Shown one piece after another: positions 1,971 through 17,132 of a stretch of 64,000 nt of DNA; positions within the stretch are counted from its first letter, which is position 1, and the number at the start of each line of letters is the position of its first letter. The notes under the pieces are model-generated. The model was not told where the DNA came from, did no database searches, and saw only the letters and a list, made by a program, of their open reading frames with translations. Made by a program: the position numbers and the translations under genes. This DNA comes from Muribaculaceae bacterium (GTDB lineage: Bacteria; Bacteroidota; Bacteroidia; Bacteroidales; Muribaculaceae), in the NCBI GenBank assembly GCA_022510385.1, contig JAFLTQ010000011.1, positions 1 through 64,000 of the forward strand, written 5' to 3'.

Positions 1971-2015
1971 AGTTCGTATGTTTATAACTAAAAAAAGTCT
2001 ATAAACATACGAACT
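1971..2015 (-). promoter_or_regulatory. 16-bp perfect inverted repeat, probable operator
   Basis: Arms 1971-1986 and 2000-2015 are exact reverse complements, with a 13-nt spacer holding an A-run. No T-tract follows on either strand, so a simple terminator is unlikely. It lies just upstream of the small HTH gene and overlaps its putative -7 box. Confidence 0.55.
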
Positions 2016-2024
2016 GTTATCAAA
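1994..2024 (-). promoter_or_regulatory. Putative Bacteroidota promoter of the small HTH gene
   Basis: On the minus strand TTTG (2024-2021), 19 nt, then TAGACTTT (2001-1994), one base off TAnnTTTG. The -7 box is inside the dyad at 1971-2015. Confidence 0.4.
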
Positions 2025-2077
2025 TTGTGAATGTTTAAGAGAATCCGTCTAAATTTGTCCGGATTGAAACTCTAAGT

Positions 2078-2890
2078 TTACTTAGGAAGATTGAAGGTTA
2101 CAGACAATTCTTTCATCTGTTCTTCTGACATCCCATCAGGTATGAATCCCATATTTCTGGCACACATATAAATTATTGCACTTTTATTAAGGACATCCAC
2201 CTGGTCAAAGGCTGCCATTATATCGGTTTCGACGGCAAAGACACCATGCTTTTCCCACATCACAACATCATAATCTTCATTGATGATTCTGATGGTTTCA
2301 TCTGCCAATTCCTTGGAAGATGGCATCATATAAGGCACTATCCCGAGGCCTTTTGGTGCAAATGCTTTTGTTTCGGGTATCATCGACCATAAAATCTTAG
2401 TGAGCACATCCTTCTTCAGATATTCGGGATTATGACTCATTGCTACCAATTCAATGGGATGGGTATGCAAGGAGGCCTTAAAATTGGAACCCTTAGCGAT
2501 CAAATCGTTGTGCACAGCCAAATGTGAGGGCAATTCTGAAGTGGGAGCCACCGGATGATCGGCCACAATCTCATAATGGGCACAGTCATCCAGAATCCGG
2601 ATTATACTGCCATTTTCCATAGGCCTACGTGCCAGGTCCCTCATTCGTTTCTGAGTGCCCTTACAATAAAAATAGCAACCCTTCAGATTAGGCAATGTGT
2701 CACCTATGGGAATTTTATTGCTTATAGCCTTTTTATTGCGTATTTCATCAGTGACATGTTCTGTGATATTTACGGTTATATTTCCGCCGTTACGCTCAGC
2801 CCATCCTTTTGTCCAAAGATAACCGGCTGCTTCAGCTATTTTATCTATTTCCTGCTTTAATTCAGGAGCGTTATCCAGTACTGAATTCAT
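2078..2890 (-). CDS. rhaD: Rhamnulose-1-phosphate aldolase
   Basis: 270 residues, the usual length. A class II aldolase that cleaves L-rhamnulose 1-phosphate into dihydroxyacetone phosphate and L-lactaldehyde in the cytoplasm. Visible hallmarks are WAERNGGNITVN near residues 31-42, the zinc-binding HTHP motif in SLHTHPIELVAM, and a further conserved histidine in VMWEKHGVFA. It is the last gene of the rhaB-rhaI-rhaT-rhaD operon. The ATG directly abuts the AAC-rich arm of a repeat element (0 nt spacing), so the leader of this gene is the repeat itself, with no ribosome-binding site. Confidence 0.95.
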   Translation of the reverse strand: MNSVLDNAPELKQEIDKIAEAAGYLWTKGWAERNGGNITVNITEHVTDEIRNKKAISNKIPIGDTLPNLKGCYFYCKGTQKRMRDLARRPMENGSIIRILDDCAHYEIVADHPVAPTSELPSHLAVHNDLIAKGSNFKASLHTHPIELVAMSHNPEYLKKDVLTKILWSMIPETKAFAPKGLGIVPYMMPSSKELADETIRIINEDYDVVMWEKHGVFAVETDIMAAFDQVDVLNKSAIIYMCARNMGFIPDGMSEEQMKELSVTFNLPK

Positions 2891-3030
2891 GTTGGAGTTG
2901 TTAGAGTTGTGGAAGTTGTTAGAGTTGTGGAAGTCGTTGAAGTTGTTGGAGTTCCTGTTCTGTAAAAACTATAAAAACTGTAAAAACTACAACAACTAAT
3001 AACTATAACAACTATAAAAACTAAAAACTA
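2891..3030 (-). repeat. Stop-to-start repeat element between rhaT and rhaD
   Basis: 2891-2953 is seven consecutive 9-bp units of type GTTGNNGTT (for example GTTGGAGTT, GTTAGAGTT, GTGGAAGTT). A 9-nt loop (2954-2962) follows, then about 68 nt of TAAAAACTA/TAACAACTA units. In mRNA sense the order is GUU arm, loop CAGAACAGG, AAC arm, AUG of rhaD. The arms are imperfectly complementary and can fold into a long hairpin. The element starts about 12 nt after the rhaT stop and fills the whole junction. Confidence 0.8.
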
Positions 3031-3041
3031 TCAAATCAAAA

Positions 3042-4067
3042 TCATATAATTTGCGGGAGGAATGTTGAGACCACAAGAATCGCAAGTCCAATTAATAAAA
3101 CCACTATAGTCTTATTTGAGCATCCTTTCCATTCCTTCAAAATTATACCCCATACGTTTGAGAAAACTACATTGAGAGCCATCAGGATACACCATGCGAA
3201 AGTAAGCAATACGGGAGAGTCAACAAGGAATCCTTTTGCAAGGGCGAGTCCGAAGAACTGACTATACCACAAAGCGCCGGCAATCAAACAAAAAAGAAGA
3301 TTATTGCCCCAGACAGCTCCCATCCCATAATCACTCCACGTTTTGTTTCTTGCATTTTGGGCAAAACAGTAAGCCATATTTGTGCAAAAACCACCACAAG
3401 TGACAAGGAAAGTAGCCGGCAATGTTTCATACATTGGGTCAACGCCTTCAAAATGAAGCTCGCCTCCTACAGCAAGTCCCACATTAAAGCATGCGCTCAT
3501 AAGCCCGCAAAGTAATGCCACTACAATTCCCTTAGGGAAATTGAACTCTTTTACGGCAGCTTTCTTTTCTTCTTCACTCAAAGAATTAGCTTTCATAGAA
3601 CCTGCGATGCCAATGACGGCGATGCCGACAAGAGTTACGATCACTCCTATGATAACCGACCAAGTGAGTTGTTGGAGGAAGCCCATCCCCGGATAAAGCC
3701 AGTTGAGTACTATAGGGCCTAAAATAGTACCAAGGCCCGCACATGTGCCTAAGGCAATCGACTGTCCTAAAGCGACTCCAAGATATCTCATTGAAAGGCC
3801 GAAAGTCAATCCTCCCACACCCCACAACATTCCGAAAAACACTGTGAGCCATGAGGCCTCCGGATTCCCGGCAAAAAGTTCTCCGAGCGAATGGCCTTGC
3901 GGCACAGCTAAGAAAGCTCCGAGCAACGGAAGTATAATCCATGCAAAGAGTCCCTGCACAATCCAATAGCTTTCCCAGCTCCATTGCTTAATTTTATTGA
4001 TGGGGACATAACAACTGGATTGGCAGAAGGCTCCCGCCGCTATAATTAGTAATCCTAAGACTATCAT
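3042..4067 (-). CDS. rhaT: L-rhamnose:H+ symporter
   Basis: 341 residues, matching the RhaT family length, with about ten hydrophobic segments across the protein and a short hydrophilic loop near residues 160-172 (SMKANSLSEEEKKA). Family landmarks include SSCYVPINKIKQWSWESYWI near residues 17-36 and the glycine-rich GMLWGVGGLTFGLSMRYLGVALG block. It imports L-rhamnose across the inner membrane. In the operon it lies between rhaI and rhaD, with repeat elements on both sides. The start ATG follows an AAC-rich arm. Confident assignment. Confidence 0.93.
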   Translation of the reverse strand: MIVLGLLIIAAGAFCQSSCYVPINKIKQWSWESYWIVQGLFAWIILPLLGAFLAVPQGHSLGELFAGNPEASWLTVFFGMLWGVGGLTFGLSMRYLGVALGQSIALGTCAGLGTILGPIVLNWLYPGMGFLQQLTWSVIIGVIVTLVGIAVIGIAGSMKANSLSEEEKKAAVKEFNFPKGIVVALLCGLMSACFNVGLAVGGELHFEGVDPMYETLPATFLVTCGGFCTNMAYCFAQNARNKTWSDYGMGAVWGNNLLFCLIAGALWYSQFFGLALAKGFLVDSPVLLTFAWCILMALNVVFSNVWGIILKEWKGCSNKTIVVLLIGLAILVVSTFLPQII

Positions 4068-4069
4068 AT

Positions 4070-4150
4070 TGAAAGTTGTGAGTTGTAAGCTTTAAGTTGT
4101 AAGTTGACAATTTTGAGTACCCATCCTCTCAACTCAAAACTTACAACTAC
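4070..4150 (-). repeat. Stop-to-start hairpin element between rhaI and rhaT
   Basis: Same architecture as the other junction elements but diverged sequence. In mRNA sense a GUUGUAAGUUUUGAGUU-type arm follows the rhaI stop, then a loop, then an arm of AACTTACAAC-type repeats up to the rhaT ATG. Exact pairing stretches are 4096-4105 with 4138-4147 (10 bp) and 4111-4118 with 4132-4139 (8 bp), giving a stable hairpin with a 13-nt loop. No T-tract, so not a standard terminator. Confidence 0.7.
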
Positions 4151-4155
4151 AAAGA

Positions 4156-5409
4156 TTATCGTTTTGAAGTAACGTCTTTTTCGTAGTTTTCAACCTCTTT
4201 CAAGTAGGCTTCACCCACCGGGACATTGTTCTTGAGGCAGAACATGTCATAAACGGCATTCCATGGCAAGTTTTTCGCTTCCTCAAGAAGTGCAAGGCGC
4301 TGGAATTTCTTGTCCATATTTTCATAGTCGCGCAGAGTATTAATAGGCTCAAGGAGAGCACGGCACATACATTTTTGAGCTGCACGGCTGCCGATTACAT
4401 AAGCACCTATACGGTTCATTGTTCCATCGAAATAGTCAAGTCCATAATGAACACGGTTGAGCGCGCCTGCTCTTACTATCTCGCTGAACAGATCCATCGT
4501 GGGATCATCCATGATCGTCACATGGTCAGAATCCCAACGGATCGGACGGCTTACATGAAGCATAAGTTCCGGCACAAACAATAGCATTGATGAAACCTTG
4601 TCGGCAACACTCTCAGTGGGATGGAAGTGACCTGTGTCAAGTGTAATCATCATATTTTTCTGTGCAGCATATGCCGTATAGAAGTCATTGCTACCCACAG
4701 TATAGCTTTCAAGACCGATGCCAAATACTTTTGACTCGACAGTGTCTTTCATCCAATCATATTTATGCTCAAAAATTTGGTCGAGCGAATCCTTTAGAAG
4801 CTCACGATAATAAAGACGGTTTACTGTGATATCCTTGCTTCCGTCATGCACCCATGTATTCATAATACATGGATCTTGCTGTGCCTCTCCCATAGCTTGG
4901 GAAATCTCACGACAACGTTTTGTATGTTCGATCCAGAAATCACGGATTCCCTTGTCGGGATTAGAGAGACTCAGGTCTCCGCTCTTTGCGTGTGAGAAAG
5001 ATGTGGAGTTAAAGTCAAGTTTAATGTCGTTAGCCTTTCCCCAGTCAATCCAGCTCTGGAAATGCTCCACGCTGCATTCATCACGGTCAATAAACTTGCC
5101 GCCGAAATCACCATATATTTCGTGAAGATTGAGGCGATGTTTGCCCGGGATAAGGCTCATTGCATAAAGGATATCTTTACGCACCTCATCTATATTGCGT
5201 GCTTTGCCCGGGTAGTTGCCGTTTACCTGGATTCCACCTGTGAGACCTCCCTCACGTTCTTCAAATCCTTCCACATCATCTGCCTGCCAGCAATGAATGC
5301 TGAGGTGAAAATCCTGCATCTGCTGCAATACTTTGTCAGTGTCTACTCCGAGTGAGGCATAGCGTTCTTTCGCTATTTCATACGCCTTTTGAATATTTTC
5401 TTTGTTCAT
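4156..5409 (-). CDS. rhaI: L-rhamnose isomerase
   Basis: 417 residues from ATG 5409 (MNKENIQKAYEIAKERY). The frame stays open upstream to 5517, but that extension only translates the 9-bp repeat as Asn/Asn/Tyr units and is not family-like, so I reject it. Metal-site landmarks are seen in NLHEIYGDFGG, KLDFNSTSFSHAKSG, TWVHDGSKD, ALDTGHFHPTE-like 'TLDTGHFHPTES' and 'RPIRWDSDHV'. The enzyme converts L-rhamnose to L-rhamnulose in the cytoplasm. Also called rhaA in enterobacteria. It is the second gene of the operon after rhaB, and the junctions on both sides hold repeat elements. Confidence 0.95.
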   Translation of the reverse strand: MNKENIQKAYEIAKERYASLGVDTDKVLQQMQDFHLSIHCWQADDVEGFEEREGGLTGGIQVNGNYPGKARNIDEVRKDILYAMSLIPGKHRLNLHEIYGDFGGKFIDRDECSVEHFQSWIDWGKANDIKLDFNSTSFSHAKSGDLSLSNPDKGIRDFWIEHTKRCREISQAMGEAQQDPCIMNTWVHDGSKDITVNRLYYRELLKDSLDQIFEHKYDWMKDTVESKVFGIGLESYTVGSNDFYTAYAAQKNMMITLDTGHFHPTESVADKVSSMLLFVPELMLHVSRPIRWDSDHVTIMDDPTMDLFSEIVRAGALNRVHYGLDYFDGTMNRIGAYVIGSRAAQKCMCRALLEPINTLRDYENMDKKFQRLALLEEAKNLPWNAVYDMFCLKNNVPVGEAYLKEVENYEKDVTSKR

Positions 5410-5413
5410 GATA

Positions 5414-5525
5414 TTGTAGTTTTTGTAGTTGTTGTAGTTGTTGTAGTTGTTGTAGTTGTTGTAGTTGTTGTAGTTGTTGGAGTTGTTGTTGTCTGTAACA
5501 ACTATAAAAACTAACAACTAACAAC
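5414..5525 (-). repeat. Stop-to-start repeat element between rhaB and rhaI
   Basis: 5414-5485 is eight 9-bp units; units two to seven (5423-5476) are identical TTGTAGTTG. A short loop region (about 5486-5495) follows, then about 30 nt of AAC-type repeat (5496-5525) that enters the rhaB coding region. In mRNA sense: GUU arm, loop with ACAGAC, AAC arm, AUG of rhaI. The last four codons and stop of rhaB (V-V-S-C-stop) are encoded by the GUU arm. Confidence 0.85.
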
Positions 5526-6956
5526 TTTCTTCGGATTATAGGTTTTTGTGGTTGTAGATGCTATAGCGACATTTCTCATTTCCTGAAGGTTTTTCACCTT
5601 CCCGCCGGCTTGAAGCTGAACTAAAATATTGCCCAATGCAGTTGATTCGGTGGGACCTGCCACTACGGGGATGCCCAACTCATCCGCAGCATATTGCATA
5701 AGATAGGGATTTAGGGAGCCCCCTCCTATGACATGAAGCCGCTTTACCTCAACCGGGCTACATTCTTTAAGCCAATCGAGCACCTCCTTATATCGTTTTG
5801 CAAGACTGCGATAAATTACACGGATAAAATCTGCCGGAGTTTTAGGAACTTCCTGACCCGTGTCTTCACAATAAACTTCTATGGCCTTTATCATGCTTGC
5901 CGGATGTGCAAACATTGAATGGTCCGGGTTAATTACACTTTCACATTTCGATTGCTCGCATAAAGCTGAAAGCTCCGATATATTTTCCGGCACTTCTCCC
6001 CATTTCTTATCTTTGAATTCTTCACGACACCTTTCAAAAATCCATAAACCACATATATTTTTCAGGAATCTTGTGGTGCCGTCTATACCTCCTTCATTAG
6101 TGAAATTATATTCACGGCTCTTGGGAGTGATGATGGCCTCCGGGGATTCTATGCCAAGAAGTGACCATGTGCCGCAACTTAGATAGGCATAGTTTTCATC
6201 GGGAGTTGGGACCGCTATGACAGCTGAGGCGGTGTCATGACCGGCCACAGCTACAACAGGCACTCCACCCAATCCTGTATAATCTTGTATTTGTTGTGTC
6301 AATAAGCCTATTATTTCTCCCGGCTTAACCATTGCTCCGAATTTTTCTCTATGTATGCCTAACGCACGCAGGATATCCTCATCGAGTTCACCGGTTTTTG
6401 GGTTGACCATTTGAGATGTCGAAGCAACCGTGTATTCCATTACGGCATGGCCGGTCAGCATATAACTCAATGCATCCGGAATAAACAGAATCCTGTCGGC
6501 AGATTCTATAGTTTCCGGTGAATTCTCCATCACTGTGAAGAGTTGGAAAACAGTATTGAAATCCATAAATTGAATACCTGTTTTCTCATAGAGTTTATCT
6601 TTGCTCATTCTGTAGCTGAACCTTTCTATCGCACCCTCAGTGTGGCTGTCTCTATAACAATAAGGGAGACCGGAGATAGTGCCGTTTTTATAGAAATAGG
6701 CTACATCACAGCCCCACGTATCGATGCCTATAGATGCAAGTTTTTCTTCTCCAAGTCTTTCCCCTGTCTTTTTAAGGGCAGAAATTATTTCCTGAAACAG
6801 GAATGGCAAATCCCAAAATAAATGGCCCGCGATTGGGAGCATCGGATATTTGAAACGAGAAATTTCCTCTGTCTCAACTTTTTTGCCATCGAATGTGGCA
6901 AGTATTGTCCGGCCCGAAGTAGCTCCCAAATCCACCGCCAGATGATAAGTTTTCAT
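5511..6956 (-). CDS. rhaB: Rhamnulokinase
   Basis: 481 residues, FGGY-type carbohydrate kinase. The N-terminal phosphate-binding segment is VDLGATSGRTILATF (residues 8-22); SIGIDTWGCDVAYF and VAGHDTASAVIAVP are conserved substrate/ATP motifs, and 'LHVIGGGSLNPYLMQYAAD' near residue 410 is the adenosine motif. It phosphorylates L-rhamnulose at O1. First gene of the rhaB-rhaI-rhaT-rhaD operon; the promoter lies about 100 nt upstream. Odd feature: the C-terminal VVSC and the TAG stop come from the repeat arm that fills the junction to rhaI, so the natural C-terminus has been replaced or extended by the element. Confidence 0.95.
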   Translation of the reverse strand: MKTYHLAVDLGATSGRTILATFDGKKVETEEISRFKYPMLPIAGHLFWDLPFLFQEIISALKKTGERLGEEKLASIGIDTWGCDVAYFYKNGTISGLPYCYRDSHTEGAIERFSYRMSKDKLYEKTGIQFMDFNTVFQLFTVMENSPETIESADRILFIPDALSYMLTGHAVMEYTVASTSQMVNPKTGELDEDILRALGIHREKFGAMVKPGEIIGLLTQQIQDYTGLGGVPVVAVAGHDTASAVIAVPTPDENYAYLSCGTWSLLGIESPEAIITPKSREYNFTNEGGIDGTTRFLKNICGLWIFERCREEFKDKKWGEVPENISELSALCEQSKCESVINPDHSMFAHPASMIKAIEVYCEDTGQEVPKTPADFIRVIYRSLAKRYKEVLDWLKECSPVEVKRLHVIGGGSLNPYLMQYAADELGIPVVAGPTESTALGNILVQLQAGGKVKNLQEMRNVAIASTTTKTYNPKKVVSC

Positions 6957-7052
6957 AGTCTGATTAGAGCTTTATAAACATGGTATTATATTATAGATTT
7001 AAGGATTGAGGCTTCATGAAAAAATGAATCATATCCTCTTTCTTCCCGTAAA

Positions 7053-7085
7053 CAAAGTTACAATAAAAAAATGAATAACTCTCAA
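7053..7085 (-). promoter_or_regulatory. Promoter of the rha operon
   Basis: Minus strand: TTG (7085-7083), 22 nt, TAACTTTG (7060-7053), a full match to the Bacteroidota -7 consensus TAnnTTTG. The predicted start near 7046 leaves a leader of about 90 nt before rhaB. The rest of 6957-7281 is AT-rich with no gene visible. Confidence 0.65.
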
Positions 7086-7240
7086 TTTTTAAATAATTGG
7101 CTATATAACAGCTTATTATTCAATCTCACAGATTTTTTATTTTTGAAGACACAATTTCCTCCCCTTCATGTTTCGAAGAGGAGTGTGATAATCTATAATC
7201 TTCATATCTTTTCCTGTTTCTCCATTTAAAATCGTGGAGA

Positions 7241-7253
7241 GGGGCAGAGCCCC
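7241..7253. other. GC-rich hairpin downstream of rhaM
   Basis: GGGGC-AGA-GCCCC, a perfect 5-bp stem with a 3-nt loop, 29 nt past the rhaM stop. It could end the esterase-rhaM transcript, but there is no T-tract on either side. Confidence 0.3.
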
Positions 7254-7281
7254 GGAAAATTCTTCACTTTATATTTTTACC

Positions 7282-7599
7282 TTAATCAAGATGGAAAACT
7301 TCCTTTAGAGGAATAGTGACAGGGGAATTGTCCGGATTGACATCCATAATATCAGCCATATAATCCCACCATTTGCGGGTGATTTCATCAGCTGCCTCGG
7401 CATCTTGAGAATTGGAATCTCCTTCCACTTCCTGATAGCCAAAGAGAATATTAGTATCTTTATCCCAAAATATGGAATAATTCTTTACTCCGCTTTCGGA
7501 AATCTGTTTACGAAGTTCAGGCCACAATTCAGCATGTCTCTTTTCATATTCTTTCTCAAACCCCGGTTTGAGATACATCTTGAAAGCAAATCTTTTCAT
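7282..7599 (-). CDS. rhaM: L-rhamnose mutarotase
   Basis: 105 residues, standard for RhaM. Recognised by MKRFAFKMYLKPGFEKEYEKRHAELWPEL, which holds the conserved histidine (H23) used in anomer interconversion, by NYSIFWDKDTNILFGYQE, and by the C-terminal TRKWWDYMADIMDVNPDNSP. It interconverts alpha- and beta-L-rhamnopyranose in the cytoplasm, feeding the isomerase. It starts 26 nt after the secreted esterase gene, so both are probably co-transcribed, separately from rhaB, whose promoter lies in the following gap. Confidence 0.95.
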   Translation of the reverse strand: MKRFAFKMYLKPGFEKEYEKRHAELWPELRKQISESGVKNYSIFWDKDTNILFGYQEVEGDSNSQDAEAADEITRKWWDYMADIMDVNPDNSPVTIPLKEVFHLD

Positions 7600-7625
7600 G
7601 GTAGTGTGTTTTAAATTTATTCTTA

Positions 7626-8414
7626 TTATTGGAGATTTTTCAACCAGGCAGTTAATTCCTGCAGCATTTGGTCACGGTGTTTAAAATTAGTCCTATATCC
7701 CCAACCATGTCCTTGGTCAGGATATATGAACATTGCTACCGGAACCCCGTTTTCTACTAATGAATTATAGTAAAGAATACTGTTAATAGGCTTCACTACA
7801 TTGTCATCGCTGCAAAGAGCCATGAATACTGGACTCGTTGTAGGAGTCACTTTCTTATCTGACGACCATTCCATAACTTCTTCCTCGGTTGGGTCATCAC
7901 CTAAAAAACCTTTTCTGGTGCCGGAATGGGTGATATCTTTATCCAGGGATATCACGGGATAAAAAAGGATCTGAAAAGCCGGATTGCACTCTTCAGTAGG
8001 GTGAGTGGCCAGAGTCGATGCCAAATGCCCACCTGCCGAAGAGCCCATGATACCAATCTTGTCGGGTTTTATATTCCAGTTTTCAGCGCTGTCTTTTAAA
8101 ATCACGAAAGCTTTCCTGATGTCGTTCATTGGAATATTTTTATCTCCGTTGGGTAAATCATATTCCACCACAGCATAGGTAAACCCTAAATTATTGAAAT
8201 AGGGTGCCCAGTAATATCCTTCATGATTTTGTGCAAGGTGAGAATAACCGCCACCGGGACAAGCCACGATTGTTTTCCCGTTTTCAGTTGTCTTGGGAGG
8301 GAGGAAAACTTTCATTTTCGGAGATTCGAATTCCACTACTTTTGATTGAGCAAAAAGCGTGTTACTTAAAGTAGTTAACCCTAAAATTAGAATTAAAGTG
8401 AGAGTTTTGATCAT
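7626..8414 (-). CDS. Secreted alpha/beta-hydrolase, acetylesterase-like
   Basis: 262 residues with a clear Sec signal peptide (residues 1-22, ending TLFAQ). The alpha/beta-hydrolase fold shows the oxyanion region CPGGGYSHLA near residue 51, the nucleophile elbow GSSAGGHLAS near residue 125, an acid in LCSDDNVVKP and the catalytic His in YPDQGHGWGY. This set is typical of acetyl/xylan esterases of the BD-FAE/hormone-sensitive-lipase-like group. It probably removes acetyl groups from rhamnogalacturonan or xylan oligosaccharides in the periplasm. The location upstream of rhaM supports a pectin link. Exact substrate not readable. Confidence 0.8.
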   Translation of the reverse strand: MIKTLTLILILGLTTLSNTLFAQSKVVEFESPKMKVFLPPKTTENGKTIVACPGGGYSHLAQNHEGYYWAPYFNNLGFTYAVVEYDLPNGDKNIPMNDIRKAFVILKDSAENWNIKPDKIGIMGSSAGGHLASTLATHPTEECNPAFQILFYPVISLDKDITHSGTRKGFLGDDPTEEEVMEWSSDKKVTPTTSPVFMALCSDDNVVKPINSILYYNSLVENGVPVAMFIYPDQGHGWGYRTNFKHRDQMLQELTAWLKNLQ

Positions 8415-8763
8415 GGTTCAAAAAGTTTATTGTAAAAATATACAGAATATTCTTATATAATATTGTTTTTATGTACATTTAAAGTGTAATGCAGTGTAAA
8501 TATAAGGATTTTATGGTATATGGACATAATTACAATAAAGATGAATAAAGCTTATGGGTTGATTCGCTTATTACTCCTTACTTTTGTGTCACTAAAACAG
8601 AATATTTAAAATATCTTGAAACTTAACAAATACCCTTTATAGTTAACCTCTTTGATAGAATTATAAGTGTTTCAAAGTACAATTTGAGAAAGACCCCTCC
8701 GTTTATCAAAAAGAGAATAGAAACAAAAACATACAGACAGTCTCACTCTTGATAAAACATCTG
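8415..8763. other. Divergent intergenic region (esterase / GH2)
   Basis: AT-rich, no gene visible. One -7-like box on the + strand, TACTTTTG at 8579-8586 with GTTG 17 nt upstream, could drive the GH2-uxuA operon with a leader of about 170 nt. No convincing promoter was found for the minus-strand esterase. Confidence 0.35.
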
Positions 8764-11172
8764 ATGAATAATAAGATATCCTCTATTTCCCGAGTAATTT
8801 CAGTCATAGCTTGTTTAATTATTTTCAACAATCTTCATGCTCGCCAGGTAATAAACTTCAATTCCGACTGGGAATTCAAATATCTTGATAACCCTTTAGA
8901 TACTCTGTGGAAACAGGTGAATTTACCCCATGACTTTCAGATTTCACAGCCATGGCAGGTTCCTTCAGTCGATGATAAGGGTGATTCTTCAAATCAGATG
9001 GCAAATATTGCTTCGCGTCTCAGTTCACGTGGATTCAAAGAGATGGGGAAAGGAATCTATAGAAAGACGTTTGTGCCTTCCAACGACTGGAAAGGGAAAA
9101 GAGTGTTAATAGATTTCGAAGGAATAATGCTCAGAGGTGATGCTTATTTGAATGGTGAAAGAATCGGAGGAACTGATTACGGGTATTTAGGGTTTGAATC
9201 AGATATCTCAAAAAAGTTGAAATTTGGAGAGGAGAATCTGATTGAGGTGATTAGCGATACAGGTGATCCTGAGAATTCAAGATGGTATACCGGAGGAGGT
9301 CTTTATCGAGATGTCAATCTAATATTGACAGATCCTGATGCATATTTTACCCGAAATTCCCTATATGTCACTACCCCTGAAATCTCGGATAATGAGGCTT
9401 TGATTGTTGTCAATGGCGAATTAAGTATGCAGCAGAAGCATCATCCGGATTCTGTGAATATAGGACTTAGGATACTGGATACGGAGGGTAGCTCCATCTA
9501 TGAATCGATAAAAAAACACAGACTGAATAAACGACAGAGAGTGAGGGAATTCTCTTTGGATTCCATAATTCTACATAATATCAACCTTTGGGATTTGGAG
9601 ACTCCTTATCTCTATACGCTTGAAGCCACTATATATGATGAAAATGGTAATACGGCTGATCAAGTTTCTAAAAGGTTCGGAATACGCGAAATAGAGTTCT
9701 CACCTGAATTCGGTTTCAAATTAAACGGGAAGAAAGTATTGTTGAAAGGTATTGCCAATCATCACACCCTTGGCGCTCTCGGAGCAGCTGCTTATCCGCG
9801 GGCTATGGAAAAACGCCTTGATTTGCTGAAAGAATTTGGGTTTAATCATGTTCGAACATCCCACAATCCCTATAGTGAGTCGTTTTTAGATTTATGTGAT
9901 GAAAAGGGAATCTTGGTGGTGGATGAGCTTTATGATAAGTGGACCACTCAATATGCCGGAGGTCGCAAAGAATGGAATGAGCAATGGCTGCATGATGTCC
10001 CGGAATGGATCAAAAGAGACCGGAACCATCCGTCTGTGGTCATCTGGAGTCTCGGAAACGAATTGCAACTTATTCCAAACTTGCCATATAACGACTGGGG
10101 AGTAACTCCTTATAAACTGCAAAAGACTCTTCTTAATAAATATGATACAACCCGTCCGGTCACTGTTGCCATGCATCCCCGAGGCCGAAATGAATTTACG
10201 GACTCTCTGCCGGCTCCATTAGTGATGGAAACTGATATTGCTGCCTACAATTATCGCTATATGTATTTTCCCGGGGATGGAGAAAAATTTCCTTGGATGA
10301 TGTTTTATCAGAGCGAGGCAAATGCTTCCGGGATGCCCGGTAATTTTTTCAACATGGATCTCGACCGAGTGATTGGTCTGGCATATTGGGGCGCTATTGA
10401 TTATCTGGGAGAATCAAAAGGCTGGCCTGCAAAAGGTTGGACAGAGGGAGTATTTGATATTTCCCTGCAACCTAAACCTACTGCTTATTTTCTTAAGAGT
10501 TATTTTAAGCCTGAAGAGCCTATGGTCAGAATCGGTATATTTGAAAGTGATGACAATCGTGAATGGAACGATGTCAAAGTGGGGACAACAAAACTATCAG
10601 AAAACTGGAACCGTCAACCGGATTCTTTTGTGAAGGTCTTTACATTCACCAACGGTGATGAGGTGGAATTGCAAGTTAACGGGCAAACCATAGGGAGAAA
10701 GCAAAATAACAAATCAGATAGCAATCAACGCAACAGCATAGTGTGGGAGAATGTGCCTTATTCACCCGGAGAAATTAAAGCTACTTCATTTCAAAACGGA
10801 GTGGCTGTAGCTACTCATTCTATAAAGACAGCGGATAAGCCGGTGGCTTTAAAAGCGGAGTTTGATAATGAAAACTGGAATGCAACGGGTCAAGACCTCC
10901 AGCATGTGGTCGTAACTGCAATTGATGGAAACGGAATTGTTAACCCGTTGGCTAATGGAATTGTCACTTTCGACGTGGAAGGACCCGCTGAAATAATAGG
11001 GGTCATAAATGGAGACATCTATTCAAATGAACTTTTTTCAGGCAAACAACATTCCCTGCATGAAGGCAGAGTCACTGCCATTCTTCGCTCAAAAAATCAA
11101 CCCGGAGAAATTACTCTTAAAGCCACATCCCCGGGTATGGCATCTGCTTTACTGAATTTACAAACTAATTAA
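8764..11172 (+). CDS. GH2 family glycoside hydrolase (beta-galactosidase-like), secreted
   Basis: 802 residues from ATG 8764; an in-frame TTG at 8749 is upstream of a complete signal peptide (MNNKISSISRVISVIACLII...HA) and is not needed. Domain order: jelly-roll sugar-binding domain (~25-200), Ig-like domain, TIM barrel with acid/base E433 in WSLGNELQL and the probable nucleophile E518 in FYQSEANAS, then DUF4982-type and Ig-like C-terminal domains (~590-802). The arrangement is typical of Bacteroidota exo-beta-galactosidase/glucuronidase-like enzymes acting on plant glycans in the periplasm. It precedes uxuA, so a uronide or galactoside from pectin is a reasonable guess. Specificity cannot be read. 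Confidence 0.85.
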   Translation: MNNKISSISRVISVIACLIIFNNLHARQVINFNSDWEFKYLDNPLDTLWKQVNLPHDFQISQPWQVPSVDDKGDSSNQMANIASRLSSRGFKEMGKGIYRKTFVPSNDWKGKRVLIDFEGIMLRGDAYLNGERIGGTDYGYLGFESDISKKLKFGEENLIEVISDTGDPENSRWYTGGGLYRDVNLILTDPDAYFTRNSLYVTTPEISDNEALIVVNGELSMQQKHHPDSVNIGLRILDTEGSSIYESIKKHRLNKRQRVREFSLDSIILHNINLWDLETPYLYTLEATIYDENGNTADQVSKRFGIREIEFSPEFGFKLNGKKVLLKGIANHHTLGALGAAAYPRAMEKRLDLLKEFGFNHVRTSHNPYSESFLDLCDEKGILVVDELYDKWTTQYAGGRKEWNEQWLHDVPEWIKRDRNHPSVVIWSLGNELQLIPNLPYNDWGVTPYKLQKTLLNKYDTTRPVTVAMHPRGRNEFTDSLPAPLVMETDIAAYNYRYMYFPGDGEKFPWMMFYQSEANASGMPGNFFNMDLDRVIGLAYWGAIDYLGESKGWPAKGWTEGVFDISLQPKPTAYFLKSYFKPEEPMVRIGIFESDDNREWNDVKVGTTKLSENWNRQPDSFVKVFTFTNGDEVELQVNGQTIGRKQNNKSDSNQRNSIVWENVPYSPGEIKATSFQNGVAVATHSIKTADKPVALKAEFDNENWNATGQDLQHVVVTAIDGNGIVNPLANGIVTFDVEGPAEIIGVINGDIYSNELFSGKQHSLHEGRVTAILRSKNQPGEITLKATSPGMASALLNLQTN

Positions 11173-11296
11173 TTTCCAACCGTTAACTCCATATAATAGT
11201 GAATAATGAGATTTAGAAAGGTTTGTCAAAACAGCGAATTATGGTGGCAAAATGTTTTATATCATCCCAAGAAAAAACACCCGATATGAAGTGTTA

Positions 11297-11320
11297 TAAC
11301 TCCAACAACTCTAATAACTA
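11297..11320 (+). repeat. Solo AAC-type arm upstream of uxuA
   Basis: A short run of AACTCCAAC/AACTCTAAT units ends 4 nt before the uxuA ATG (11325). No matching GTT arm is visible in the preceding 120 nt, so this looks like a half or decayed copy of the junction elements. Confidence 0.6.
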
Positions 11321-11324
11321 ATGT

Positions 11325-12491
11325 ATGCAAAAGACTTGGCGCTGGTTCGGACCAAAAGATCCCATCACTCTTGAAATGCTAAAACAAATAGGGGTGGAAG
11401 GTATCGTAACTTCTCTTCATCACATTCCCAATGGTGAAGTTTGGAGTCTTAAAGAAATCAACAAGATGAAGGATTTCATAGAGGAAAGAGGATTGAAATG
11501 GAGTGTGGTGGAATCTCTTCCCGTTTCCGAATCCATAAAATATGGAGGGGAAGATCGTGATGACCTTATAGAGAAATATAAGGAGAGTCTAAGAAATCTG
11601 GGTAAAGCCGGAGTTAAGACCATCTGTTATAATTTCATGCCGGTACTCGACTGGGCGCGTACCGACCTTGAATACCCGAATCCTGACGGCACTTCCAATC
11701 TCTATTTCAACCGGGCTGAATTTGCTTATTTCGATATAAATATTCTGAAGAGGGAGGGAGCTGAAAAAGATTATGACGAGGAGACGCTCCATAGAATGAG
11801 GGAAGAAATAGCCCCAAAAATGGATGCCGAAGCCGAACAAAGACTTGTTGAAAACATAATCGTGAAAACACAAGGGTTCGTCAACGGGAATATCTCTGAA
11901 AATGATCTCAATCCGGTGGAGAAATTCAAAGGACTCTTGGATTTATATAAGGGCATAGATAAGAAACAATTACAGGAGAATATGGCTTATTTTCTTAATG
12001 CCATAATGCCGGTTTGTGATGAATATGATATCAATATGTGTGTTCATCCGGATGATCCTCCGATGCCAATATTAGGTTTGCCGAGAATTGTGACATGTGA
12101 CCAAGATATTCAGGATTTCCTGGATTCTGTGCCAAATAAACATAATGGATTGACATTCTGTGCAGGCTCTTTAAGCGGGGGAGCACATAATGACGTTCCC
12201 GCTTTGGCAAAGAAATATGCCAAGCGAACGCATTTCGTGCATGCCCGCATCTGTAATGTTATGCCGAATGGCGACTTCAAAGAGTCTTCTCATCTTGATC
12301 CGAGATTAGTGGATATTGTCAGAACTTTTGAAAGAGAAAATCCAAATATACCTATGCGTGTTGACCATGCCCCACTTATGCTCGGAGATGAAAAGATGGG
12401 ATATAATGCCGGATATTCTTTCCATGGCAGGATGCTTGCCTTGGGAATGGTTTCCGGGATTATGGCAGCGGTTGCTTCGCAAAGTTGTTGA
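11325..12491 (+). CDS. uxuA: D-mannonate dehydratase
   Basis: 388 residues. Recognised by MQKTWRWFGPKDPITLEMLKQIGVEGIVTSLHHIPNGEVW at the N-terminus, 'YNFMPVLDWARTDL', the metal-binding 'MCVHPDDPP', the 'FCAGSLS' loop, and 'FVHARICN' and 'RVDHAPLM' near the end. It dehydrates D-mannonate to 2-keto-3-deoxygluconate in the cytoplasm (glucuronate branch). ATG 11325 is used; a nearer ATG at 11321 is out of frame. The last codons S-C and the TGA stop are encoded by the start of the GTT arm at 12483, the same phase as in rhaB. Downstream gene: SDR oxidoreductase after the four-helix-bundle insertion. Confidence 0.95.
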   Translation: MQKTWRWFGPKDPITLEMLKQIGVEGIVTSLHHIPNGEVWSLKEINKMKDFIEERGLKWSVVESLPVSESIKYGGEDRDDLIEKYKESLRNLGKAGVKTICYNFMPVLDWARTDLEYPNPDGTSNLYFNRAEFAYFDINILKREGAEKDYDEETLHRMREEIAPKMDAEAEQRLVENIIVKTQGFVNGNISENDLNPVEKFKGLLDLYKGIDKKQLQENMAYFLNAIMPVCDEYDINMCVHPDDPPMPILGLPRIVTCDQDIQDFLDSVPNKHNGLTFCAGSLSGGAHNDVPALAKKYAKRTHFVHARICNVMPNGDFKESSHLDPRLVDIVRTFERENPNIPMRVDHAPLMLGDEKMGYNAGYSFHGRMLALGMVSGIMAAVASQSC

Positions 12492-12547
12492 AGTTGTTGA
12501 AGTTGTTAAAGTTTTTATTGTTTTTATTGTTTTTATAGTTTTTATAG
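12483..12547 (+). repeat. GTT arm of the four-helix-bundle element
   Basis: Units GTTGTTGAA, GTTGTTGAA, GTTGTTAAA, then T-rich derivatives (GTTTTTATT, GTTTTTATA). The first 31 nt are the exact reverse complement of 12929-12959. The uxuA stop codon (TGA, 12489-12491) is inside the arm. Confidence 0.85.
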
Positions 12548-12555
12548 AAATTTAA

Positions 12556-12918
12556 ATGAAAACTTCTGATTATAAAGATTTAAAGATATGGATAAAATCC
12601 ATGGATTTAGCAAAAATAATTTATACATTAACTCAACGGTTCCCTAAGGAAGAGATATTTGGTCTGACATCTCAAATGAGAAGATGTGCTGTTTCAATTC
12701 CATCTAATATTGCTGAGGGACATGCAAGGAATTCAAAAAAAGATTTTATTCATTTTCTTAAAATATCTTTAGGGTCTAATGCTGAATTAGAAACTCAAGC
12801 AATATTGAGTCAAAATTTTGACTATATTACAATAGATGAGTTATCCCAAATACAAAAGGAGACCAAAGAAATTAGTAAAATGATAATTTCTCTTATACAT
12901 CATCTCCAACAACTCTAA
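12556..12918 (+). CDS. Four-helix-bundle protein (23S rRNA intervening-sequence / S23 family)
   Basis: 120 residues. The opening 'DYKDLKIWIKSMDLAKIIYTLTQRFPKEE' and the signature 'GLTSQMRRCAVSIPSNIAEGHARNSKKDFIHFLKISLGSNAELETQ' (residues ~34-80) are hallmarks of the S23/IVS four-helix-bundle family, which also includes Avd of diversity-generating retroelements. These proteins form basic pentameric barrels thought to bind nucleic acid; the function outside rRNA spacers is unknown. The gene is embedded in an operon between uxuA and an SDR gene, flanked by inverted repeat arms. Its last residues LQQL and the TAA stop are read from the AAC arm. No reverse transcriptase or variable repeat is nearby, so not a DGR. 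Confidence 0.9.
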   Translation: MKTSDYKDLKIWIKSMDLAKIIYTLTQRFPKEEIFGLTSQMRRCAVSIPSNIAEGHARNSKKDFIHFLKISLGSNAELETQAILSQNFDYITIDELSQIQKETKEISKMIISLIHHLQQL

Positions 12919-12986
12919 CAACTCTAACAACTTTAACAACTTCAACAACTTCAACAACTCCAACAACTCCAACAACTCTAACAACT
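12904..12986 (+). repeat. AAC arm of the four-helix-bundle element
   Basis: Nine consecutive 9-bp units of type CTYYAACAA (CTCCAACAA, CTCTAACAA, CTTTAACAA, CTTCAACAA) plus CT, ending at the base before ATG of the SDR gene. Units four to seven hold the 31-bp complement of the GTT arm. Confidence 0.88.
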
Positions 12987-13802
12987 ATGAACTTATTTGA
13001 TATAAAAGGGAACGTAACAGTGATAACCGGAGGTACGGGTGTATTGGGCCGTGCTATTGCCAAATATCTTGCCTGTAACGGAGCAAAAGTTATCATCCTC
13101 GGACGCAAGGAAGACGTCGGATCCGAGATAGTAAAAGAAATCGAGTCAGTGAAACCGGAGGGTTCCATTGAATTCATGAAGACAAATGTGCTTGACAGAG
13201 CTACTGTAGAAAAAAACTGTGCTGATATTGTAAGTAAATATGGAAAAGTCGACACATTGCTCAATGCAGCGGGCGGCAATATGCCGGGAGCGACAATAGC
13301 TCCGGATAAGAATTTCTTTGATCTTGACCCTGAACAGTTTGAGAAAGTTCTGACCCTTAATCTCACCGGAACTGTCATCCCGACCCAAGTTTTCCTGACC
13401 CCTATGGTAGCTCAAGGGAAAGGGAGCATTATAAATTTTTCTTCTATGTCAGCTTTCCGACCTCTCACCAGAGTTTGTGGTTACTCTGCAGCCAAAGCCG
13501 GCATCTCTAACTTCACAGCTTACATGGCAACTGAGTGTGCCCGCAAATTCGGAGAAGGCATCAGGGTGAATGCTATAGCTCCCGGATTTTTCCTTACAGA
13601 ACAGAATCGCTCTCTTTTGACAAATCCTGATGGAAGTTACACTCAGAGGGGTCAAGATGTGATCAGGCAGACTCCTTTCGGTCGAATGGGTAAACCGGAA
13701 GAACTATGCGGCACGATTCATTATCTAATGAGCGAGGCTTCAAAATTTGTCACCGGAACCGTAGCCATTGTCGATGGCGGTTTCAATGTCCTGGCTATGT
13801 AG
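12987..13802 (+). CDS. SDR oxidoreductase, probable D-mannonate/fructuronate oxidoreductase
   Basis: 271 residues. NAD(P) motif TGGTGVLG near residues 14-21 (ITGGTGVLGRAIAK), NAAGG near 93, catalytic Ser in INFSSMSAF and YSAAKAG (Tyr/Lys pair near residues 169-173), and the C-terminal VTGTVAIVDGGFN. SDR enzymes of this kind replace the long-chain UxuB in Bacteroidota and reduce D-fructuronate to D-mannonate, consistent with uxuA upstream. The ATG follows the AAC arm directly with no ribosome-binding site, exactly as for rhaD. Function inferred from family and neighbour; SDR membership is certain. Confidence 0.85.
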   Translation: MNLFDIKGNVTVITGGTGVLGRAIAKYLACNGAKVIILGRKEDVGSEIVKEIESVKPEGSIEFMKTNVLDRATVEKNCADIVSKYGKVDTLLNAAGGNMPGATIAPDKNFFDLDPEQFEKVLTLNLTGTVIPTQVFLTPMVAQGKGSIINFSSMSAFRPLTRVCGYSAAKAGISNFTAYMATECARKFGEGIRVNAIAPGFFLTEQNRSLLTNPDGSYTQRGQDVIRQTPFGRMGKPEELCGTIHYLMSEASKFVTGTVAIVDGGFNVLAM

Positions 13803-13829
13803 ATTAAAGAATCAGTTTATAAATTGTAT

Positions 13830-15230
13830 TTATTTGTTGAGGCCGGTTATCTCTCGGATAATCTCAGGAATATTTGTATTGTCATGAAGGCCGGCAAATT
13901 TGTCGGCTTCCACTCCTATAGCATATACGGGCACATAGTTGCCGGTGTGATTATAGGTAACCCATCCAATGCCGCAGATATCATTGAAGATATTAAAAAC
14001 AGTCGTTGAAAACTCATCAAAATTTTGATAAAGGGTTTTCTGATCCTCGCTATTCCGCATTTCGAAAGTCTTGGTAAATTTCTCTTCGAGCAAAGCTGTC
14101 TGTTTTTCATTCACAGGTACACCGGCCCAAAAACCTAAATTTTCTTTCAGCATCTCCTTCATATCATCCCATGTAAATACTCTGCGAGATTTAAGTATGG
14201 CCCGGCATTCATCATTGAAACGATCTTTTGAAATTTTCTGATAGTCGATATATTGAGGTTGCATGTTATAGCCGGTAAAAATACTACCTATTGCAAGTCC
14301 ACCGGTATCATGGTCGGCTGTCACTATGATAAGGGTCTCTTCAGGGTGTTCATTATAAAAATTATATGCGAGACGAAGTGTCTGATCAAAGTTCAGAACC
14401 TCTTTTATTGCCGTGCCACCATCATTGGAATGGCCTGCATAGTCAATGTTTCCTCCTTCCACCATCATAAAGAATTTTTCAGGACACCATTTCTGGAGGT
14501 GAGAAAGACATACTTCCGTCATTTCCGGAAGAGTCAAGGCGCCTGGTATGGAATCAACGGTGTAGCCGATCTGATAGGTGTCAATTCCTTCGGGGTTCAC
14601 CATCAGTATTCTTTCGCTTGTTGATGAACGCGCGGCATCAGCGCCCATCACATATTCCATGTTATACTGTTTTAGCACATCGATAAGGTCGTTGGGATTA
14701 CCATCTTTATCCTTTGTTCCCCTCAACTTCGAACCTCCCAGAAACTGATAGCCCGACTGAGCCGCCTGCACGGTTATATCGTAGTACATGCTCCTATGCG
14801 GAACATGAGCATAAAAAGCACCGGGGGTGGCATCATCGGGGGGTACAGATGTCACAAGGCCGATTCCGTAACCTTCAGAAAATAATTGAGCAGCTATTGA
14901 TTCTACGGCCACTGAATCAGTATCCATTCCGAGCATACCGTTTTTGGTCTTATTGCCTGTCGCGAGTGCTGTGCCTGCGGCTGCTGAATCTGTCACAGGT
15001 GAGGAGGCTGAATGGGTTGTCAACATTCCTGCCACCGGGAACTGCATCATTAAGAGCGGTTCCTCATCACTTAGAATCATACGCTTGTAAGCCTGAGTGG
15101 CTGCCACATGGCCCATGCCCATTCCGTCACCGATAAAATAGAAAATATACTTTGGGGATTCCTGTGCACTCAGATTTGAAAAAACAGCAAACAGGATGCT
15201 TGTAAGAAGTGCTGACTTTATTTTGTTCAT
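13830..15230 (-). CDS. Alkaline phosphatase, periplasmic
   Basis: 466 residues. Signal peptide of about 22 residues (ending NLSAQ). Alkaline-phosphatase superfamily motifs: metal-site FIGDGMGMGHV (~32-42), nucleophile segment PVTDSAAAGTALATG with the Ser near residue 82, 'DDATPGAFYAHV', 'EGGNIDYAGHSND' and 'VTADHDTGG' near residue 310, which supply the zinc ligands. It hydrolyses phosphomonoesters in the periplasm. The gene is convergent with the SDR gene (27-nt gap without a visible terminator). It is transcribed alone. Family call is secure; link to phosphate starvation is not shown by the sequence. Confidence 0.9.
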   Translation of the reverse strand: MNKIKSALLTSILFAVFSNLSAQESPKYIFYFIGDGMGMGHVAATQAYKRMILSDEEPLLMMQFPVAGMLTTHSASSPVTDSAAAGTALATGNKTKNGMLGMDTDSVAVESIAAQLFSEGYGIGLVTSVPPDDATPGAFYAHVPHRSMYYDITVQAAQSGYQFLGGSKLRGTKDKDGNPNDLIDVLKQYNMEYVMGADAARSSTSERILMVNPEGIDTYQIGYTVDSIPGALTLPEMTEVCLSHLQKWCPEKFFMMVEGGNIDYAGHSNDGGTAIKEVLNFDQTLRLAYNFYNEHPEETLIIVTADHDTGGLAIGSIFTGYNMQPQYIDYQKISKDRFNDECRAILKSRRVFTWDDMKEMLKENLGFWAGVPVNEKQTALLEEKFTKTFEMRNSEDQKTLYQNFDEFSTTVFNIFNDICGIGWVTYNHTGNYVPVYAIGVEADKFAGLHDNTNIPEIIREITGLNK

Positions 15231-16988: not shown

Positions 16989-17132
16989 ATGTTAGTTCCC
17001 ATAAAAAGAAAATGCCCCAAATGCGAACATGTGTTCGTTATATGGACAGGAGGATTTATTCTTAAAGATCCCCCCTTTAGTTTATGGACTCCATGTCCTT
17101 CCTGTCATCATTGGCGCACTAAAGTGATATGA
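16989..17132 (+). CDS. 47-residue zinc-ribbon microprotein
   Basis: Reads MLVPIKRKCPKCEHVFVIW, then a glycine-rich linker and a second pair CPSCHHW, ending in KVI. The two CxxC pairs (C9/C12 and C37/C40) form a classic zinc ribbon. The start is 17 nt downstream of a consensus -7 box and the stop is TGA at 17130-17132. Small proteins of this form are easily missed by gene callers. Function unknown; nucleic-acid or protein binding is the usual guess for single ribbons. It stands at the left end of the MORN/nuclease block and may belong to it. Confidence 0.6.
   Translation: MLVPIKRKCPKCEHVFVIWTGGFILKDPPFSLWTPCPSCHHWRTKVI

Follow-up and report, generated by a model that had tools for sequence, protein, structure and literature searches.

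The gap between uxuA and the following SDR gene, in the 64,000-nucleotide stretch of Muribaculaceae DNA analysed here (the window), is probably occupied by one copy of a mobile element resembling the intervening sequences (IVSs) of rRNA, whose arms would act mainly as a hairpin of DNA or of a single strand. Such an S23 element would consist of one S23 gene set between two self-complementary, short-period tandem arrays. Sequence comparison supports this on four counts: relatives differ in whether one and the same site is filled, the gene and its arms recur as a pair elsewhere, S23 is under coding constraint, and arm complementarity is far above that of controls, the arm sequence itself being free. 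The locus is laid out as follows:

11295..11320, + strand: lone short AAC-type array right in front of the uxuA start, with no sign of a partner arm
11325..12491, + strand: uxuA (mannonate dehydratase), upstream neighbour; PF03786 378.3 bits, TIGR00695 411.4 bits
12483..12549, + strand: left arm (5', G-rich), 9-nt tandem array whose unit drifts from AGTTGTTGA to AGTTTTTAT
12556..12918, + strand: S23 (23S-rRNA-intervening-sequence-type four-helix-bundle) gene, 120 aa, frame intact
12904..12986, + strand: right arm (3', C-rich), 9-nt tandem array of unit AACAACTCC, from a tandem-repeat search
12987..13802, + strand: SDR gene, downstream neighbour; D-mannonate oxidoreductase is the best model (NF006132, 356.8 bits, cut-off 281)

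S23 is the sole gene between the arms. Its placement in the S23/IVS-type family, first proposed in the initial annotation, is borne out by PF05635 (140.1 bits, cut-off 33.8) and TIGR02436 (137.3 bits, cut-off 24), and 12929-12959 is, as had also been claimed, the exact reverse complement of 12483-12513, giving a perfect 31-bp pairing. The full arms are longer than this core and imperfect (12483-12549 against 12893-12959, 67 nt, 79%). When 1264 stretches of the window were scanned, they scored 34.5, for a 99th percentile of 13.5, and form the strongest inverted pair there; the runner-up, with a score of 17, lies at a rhamnose-operon junction. The predicted RNA fold of the region is a long stem of -120.8 kcal/mol (z -6.0), equalled by none of 100 shuffles, and a search of 2000-14000 with Rfam gave no match at gathering score. 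The right array begins inside the 3' end of the S23 gene and stops at the SDR start codon, while the uxuA stop (12489-12491) falls within the left array; the element thus reaches the SDR start as initially described, but does not begin at the uxuA stop. The C-terminal end of UxuA is altered, reading AAVASQSC in the window and ATVNSEK in a relative (L107). An S23 ORF inside a long inverted repeat is the layout of an IVS, here found between uxuA and the SDR gene and so outside the rRNA genes. The locus does not qualify as a MITE or an insertion sequence, since arm units vary by locus and no transposase lies between the window arms.

Is the S23 gene a settled member of this operon or a newcomer? 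Among 61 genomes of the window's genus, uxuA is present in 16, and 15 junctions other than the window's were read, one being excluded because its contig ends at the junction. Only the window has S23 there; the other 14 are readable and lack it. The SDR gene is retained next to uxuA in six of the genus junctions read: one overlaps stop and start as TAATG, one is spaced by a single base, two are separated by short, plain sequence and the remaining two by small repeats. In L109, with a different gene downstream of uxuA, an ORF-less hairpin of another unit was recognised by eye. A second site comes from pckA, present in 47 of the 61 genomes: among the 30 pckA loci fetched, only that of genome G032 carries S23, placed before the gene and after a stretch that looks by eye like a promoter. 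The PckA of G006 is 98.5% identical to that of G032, and the stretch upstream is similar, with a different leader. When 149 S23 proteins were compared by tblastn with all 16 uxuA and these 30 pckA loci, matches were found only in the window and in G032. Of the S23 proteins found, that of G032 is the closest to the window's in the tree (63% identical, its only starred partner), and its arms, of the 9-nt kind, are homologous to the window's. Filled and empty sites at one place, the mark of a transposable element, were thus found at the uxuA junction and in the pckA leader, as well as in the fad operon described below. As far as sequences can tell, S23 and its arms at uxuA-SDR are an insertion. 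The initial annotation had suggested an IVS-like element at an operon junction, and had held that mobility would be refuted if relatives all had the gene at one fixed site and never an empty one, or if the arms had no relation to four-helix genes elsewhere. Relatives do have empty sites and the same design recurs around S23 genes at other loci, which supports the suggestion.

Movement is best seen in the fad operon of two Flavobacteria. In Flavobacterium fluvii the fadB-fadA junction carries the S23 element, and no such arrays are present between marR and fadB. In the Flavobacteriales MAG UWPOB_FLAVO2 the element is at marR-fadB, with an S23 86% identical to that of F. fluvii and similar arms of the TGTATAATGTA type; the fadB-fadA junction of this MAG contains an ORF-less pair of arrays similar to the S23 arms, although its fold z is only -2.3. 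Gene and arms thus appear to move together as a unit that occupies two junctions of one operon, in line with the mobility first proposed for the window. Even if two ancestral copies had been lost differently in the two lineages, an earlier copying event would still be required. Comparison of S23 elements across loci allowed neither a target duplication nor a conserved end to be defined, and we know of no mobility enzyme for them; reverse transcriptase was rejected as a helper, being present in 14 of 32 S23 genomes and 12 of 28 others (p 1). Two further loci show additional genes. At fadB-fadA of a Flavobacterium MAG (G086, L245:2478-3439), a single insertion contains a left array, a putAbiC-like gene and S23, which would fit an S23 element able to carry cargo; the putAbiC-like gene is in two open pieces, of which the second matches PF16872 (58.6 bits) and the first does not. 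In L090:2525-3408 (G059 C67), two tandem S23 genes, 99% identical and inside the same repeats, represent a local duplication.

Complementary flanks are a general companion of S23 genes. PF05635 finds matches in 47 of 60 genomes of relatives, with 32 over cut-off. About 94 S23 genes over cut-off come from the window's order, of which 69 were analysed (mostly higher scorers, joined by genes that share their stretches and by the three of the window's own genome), both flanks being present for 66. A second, named set comprises the best 80 of at least 584 S23 loci from many phyla, 77 with both flanks. Flanks were counted as arms when their local complementarity score exceeded the 95% level of flanks swapped between loci, and neighbour genes in flank, orientation and gap counts were mechanical ORFs, not annotation. 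In the order, 37 of 66 S23 genes have self-complementary flanks, against 10 of 137 other ORFs of these loci (p 6.5e-14); in the named set (best 80 of at least 584) the proportions are 50/77 and 10/118 (p 5.9e-17). Swapped flanks pass rarely (32/785 and, for the same best 80 of at least 584, 34/916), and 29 of 66 and 27 of 77 S23 genes, respectively, stay below the threshold. S23-like ORFs had been removed from the control by blastp, before which it stood at 20/153 (order) and 15/122 (named); 12 of 15 of those taken out are also flanked by arms.

The arms have a common polarity and no common sequence. They are commonly short-period arrays in inverted orientation, with a unit that varies from locus to locus. 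On the S23 strand the 5' arm is the G-richer in 32 of 37 order genes with arms and 46 of 50 in the named set (best 80 of at least 584), in 90 of 105 of all genes where both neighbours are co-directional, and in 18/20, 6/7 and 4/5 beside one or both antisense neighbours. The commonest left-arm period is 7 or 14 (19/36 order; 15/47 among the best 80 of at least 584 named loci), followed by 8; 12/36 and 25/47, respectively, have no clear period. S23 is mostly transcribed with its neighbours: the downstream gene is co-directional in 58 of 65 order and 71 of 77 named loci, the upstream gene in 55 of 67 and 62 of 77 (named again being the best 80 of at least 584). Five cyanobacterial plasmid copies were read out of 28 matching plasmid records. 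Four show clear arms by eye, such as GGGAGTA and TACTCCC on a Nostoc plasmid, the Calothrix copy being weak, and two of the five are antisense to both neighbours. In viral contigs (L248-L270), 18 of 23 S23 loci, several of them near-copies, have flanks over the named-set threshold; a search of annotated phage records gave no S23 match. The window's own genome contains a second, internally shortened S23 gene (L036, C5:12285-12521), with arms GAGTTGT / AACTCAA and, presumably, hpt-like and adk-like neighbours.

The arms could instead be working in RNA. If they paired in the mRNA and the stem were a substrate of RNase III or of some other nuclease, cutting would remove the S23 piece and separate the cistrons, as in 23S rRNA. 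Excision or processing, for example by RNase III, was suggested in the initial annotation; we consider this unlikely, although it is the best placed of the alternatives. The very stable predicted stem (z -6.0) and the mostly co-directional neighbours speak for it, and so does, in the part of PMC4990558 available, the Coxiella IVS, whose S23 ORF and 28-bp stem are cut out by RNase III in vitro. No recognisable copy of the enzyme, however, was found where it would be needed. PF00636 is over cut-off in 0 of 37 genus genomes and in 21 of 23 others of the order, and TIGR02191 in 0 of 25 and 12 of 15; in the genome of the window PF14622 matches nothing. Several of the 37 negative genomes are 97-100% complete, and two genomes of the order outside the genus (G037 and G044) also lack an RNase III match. 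Complementary arms are nevertheless equally good inside the genus (15/27) and outside it (22/39). Nor are G-U pairs favoured over A-C among arm mismatches: they make up 66 of 170 in the order, a deficit (p 0.004), and 105 of 231 among the best 80 of at least 584 named loci, both counts being uncorrected for composition. That G-U is not in excess argues against selection for pairing in the sense RNA but is no proof of a DNA role. Some copies are antisense to both neighbours. The missing enzyme matches, the equal arms and the lack of G-U excess all speak against RNase III excision in the genus, and the suggestion to that effect is not supported, though another nuclease might act. The case is strong but not final, as a recent loss of the enzyme in the genus could leave older arms behind. 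These same observations favour a DNA or single-strand hairpin.

The protein, for its part, does not seem to read a particular arm sequence. Arm sequence follows the S23 tree no further than close relatives (Mantel r 0.09, for 0.10 in control flanks), so nothing shows S23 recognising its arms, and recognition of a conserved arm sequence found no support. Within 14 hand-chosen pairs of close relatives, own arms beat crossed arms in seven (p 0.04), too weak a result for arm covariation to be taken as decisive proof. In one case, the pair L081/L089, TTAATGATT/AATCATTAA has changed into TCAATGATC/GATCATTGA. The S23 gene itself evolves under coding constraint, as its substitution rates show: dN is 0.032 for a dS of 0.76 in one pair and 0.092 for 0.96 in another, and three further pairs have reached, or almost reached, saturation at synonymous sites. 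Solved relatives of the protein, 2gsc and 2rld, have five chains each. Avd of diversity-generating retroelements is of a related fold family, as described in excerpts of PMC10053308, and the bAvd and Avd models match the window S23 weakly. Both nonetheless remain below cut-off (Avd 36 bits, cut-off 80), and RVT_1 has no match in the window's genome, on which grounds a diversity-generating retroelement was rejected.

Hairpins without a gene raise another question, since the rhamnose operon of the window, in the order rhaB-rhaA-rhaT-rhaD, has one at each of its three junctions:

2888..3035, - strand: ORF-less hairpin at the rhaT-rhaD junction, of the 9-nt design of the S23 arms; fold z -3.9
4064..4160, - strand: ORF-less hairpin at the rhaA-rhaT junction, unit TTGTAAG / CTTACAA; fold z -4.4
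5408..5535, - strand: ORF-less hairpin at the rhaB-rhaA junction, entered by the rhaB 3' end; fold z -4.7

Two of them score 15 and 14 in the window scan, where 15 is also reached at 17126 and 24354; being unexceptional there, they owe their case to position and fold z. At 5511-5526 the rhaB frame enters the repeat array before stopping, like uxuA, and since both frames end inside arrays, the end of a gene can be extended or replaced by an array. Other gaps of the window's genome (C3:87264, C20 and twice in C45) show the 9-nt pattern too, in some cases with one arm. Its strict form has 39 matches there against 0 in the reversed control, and a looser form 38 against 6. The proposed tie between arms and S23 gene is therefore upheld in that arms are common around S23, and loosened in that arm hairpins without the gene also exist.

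Such hairpins might serve the host in regulation, acting between cistrons as attenuators, translation spacers or mRNA stabilisers, with S23 as a passenger caught in one of them, a reading to which we give somewhat less credence than to excision from the mRNA. It accounts for three consecutive rhamnose junctions and for lone arrays before start codons, and tandem heptamers before start codons have been proposed as translational sites (PMC4679880, in part). Yet strong hairpins are rare at ordinary same-strand gaps of the fetched loci (3/79, two of these inside the window, and 5/87), S23 genes are surrounded by arms in many phyla, and S23 is under coding constraint. At other gaps of these loci strong hairpins number 1/18 and 4/23, several of them unlike S23 arms. 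That S23 is an ordinary small orphan gene in unstable, low-complexity DNA, its inverted layout due to chance slippage, is very improbable: the arrays are indeed of low complexity and variable between close relatives, but own flanks far exceed both swapped flanks and the flanks of other ORFs.

If the mobile-element reading is correct, a mechanism can be sketched. S23 elements would insert into transcribed but untranslated gaps, that is, operon stop-to-start junctions and 5' leaders, mostly along the direction of transcription. They would be tolerated because they lie between stop and start codons and their 3' arm serves as a G-poor leader of the next gene. The arms would form a functional hairpin, in DNA or in a single-stranded nucleic acid, and copying inside this hairpin, by slippage and template switching, would keep them matched while the unit changes. 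The S23 protein may be the binding part, holding the hairpin so that it can be copied into a new junction by enzymes of the host. If the S23 gene were then lost, an ORF-less hairpin would be left, and in the genus RNase III excision would be unnecessary.

How does this compare with known systems? IVSs of rRNA with an S23 ORF and RNase III processing are already known (PMC4990558), and 23S_rRNA_IVP ORFs within rRNA insertions are reported from CPR bacteria (PMC11270868). In the portions of both sources at hand, the rRNA IVSs of Coxiella and others share with the S23 element the protein family, a long inverted repeat whose loop contains the ORF, a sporadic distribution and insertion where the transcript tolerates it. 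The S23 element differs by its place in mRNA gaps, by short-period arms that differ from locus to locus and by a genus in which no RNase III was found; also, the Coxiella IVS ORF is described as under reductive evolution (PMC4990558, in part), whereas S23 is constrained here. The heptamers GGGAATC of Xanthomonas and GGGGA(C/T)T of Nostoc, in what is accessible of PMC4692102, resemble S23 arms in being intergenic and in matching position and polarity, the G-rich strand lying just after stops and the opposite strand just before starts. Inverted pairs number 70 and 75 in two Xanthomonas genomes and are few in Nostoc; unlike S23 arms, these arrays have one fixed unit, and they occupy conserved places, generally not with mobile elements (PMC4692102). 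A term search of the same partial text for S23, xcc0516 and four helix returned no mention. TAACTGA repeats of Beggiatoaceae, Cyanobacteria and some Bacteroidetes are likewise tandem heptamers near starts, and their author considered a protein binding the repeats as a possible mobile component; they differ in being direct repeats, with one inverted pair in about 170 sets of the main genome, and S23 is not mentioned in the searched portion of that source (PMC4679880). BrickBuilt MITEs of Porphyromonas gingivalis are also short, intergenic and made of tandem repeats, but are built on one unit of 23 nt and end in small inverted repeats (PMC4596501, in extract), whereas no conserved ends were found in S23 elements. 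In the open-licence PMC literature we found no description of S23 genes inside self-complementary arrays at mRNA gaps.

A wider view can be put forward tentatively: S23 elements might form a cross-phylum class of tiny mobile elements, of which rRNA IVSs would be a special case and the heptamer arrays (TAACTGA, GGGAATC, cyanobacterial) ORF-less remnants. The class would then possibly be defined by the gene of a pentamer-forming protein together with arms that have no fixed sequence, are self-complementary only and are rebuilt at each site. The Xanthomonas arrays, whose positions are conserved and which were not found with mobile elements, argue against this wider view.

S23 genes are common, 32 of the 60 relatives having one over cut-off, and to our knowledge their proteins have no known role beyond rRNA IVSs. 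If the reading given here is true, many genes annotated as four helix bundle protein would be hitchhikers, including those in cas loci. The text available from PMC3936711 lists 18 23S-rRNA-intervening-type genes in such loci. On plasmid pANA02 of Anabaena sp. 90 (L230), S23 lies with arms between cas6 and cas4, which suggests hitchhiking, and cas-associated S23 genes may be insertions. Puzzling intergenic repeat arrays may likewise gain an origin, and a mobile element that marks its ends by complementarity in place of sequence would be doing so in a new way. The window copy looks like an example of a widespread, little-recognised small mobile element living in the gaps between genes.
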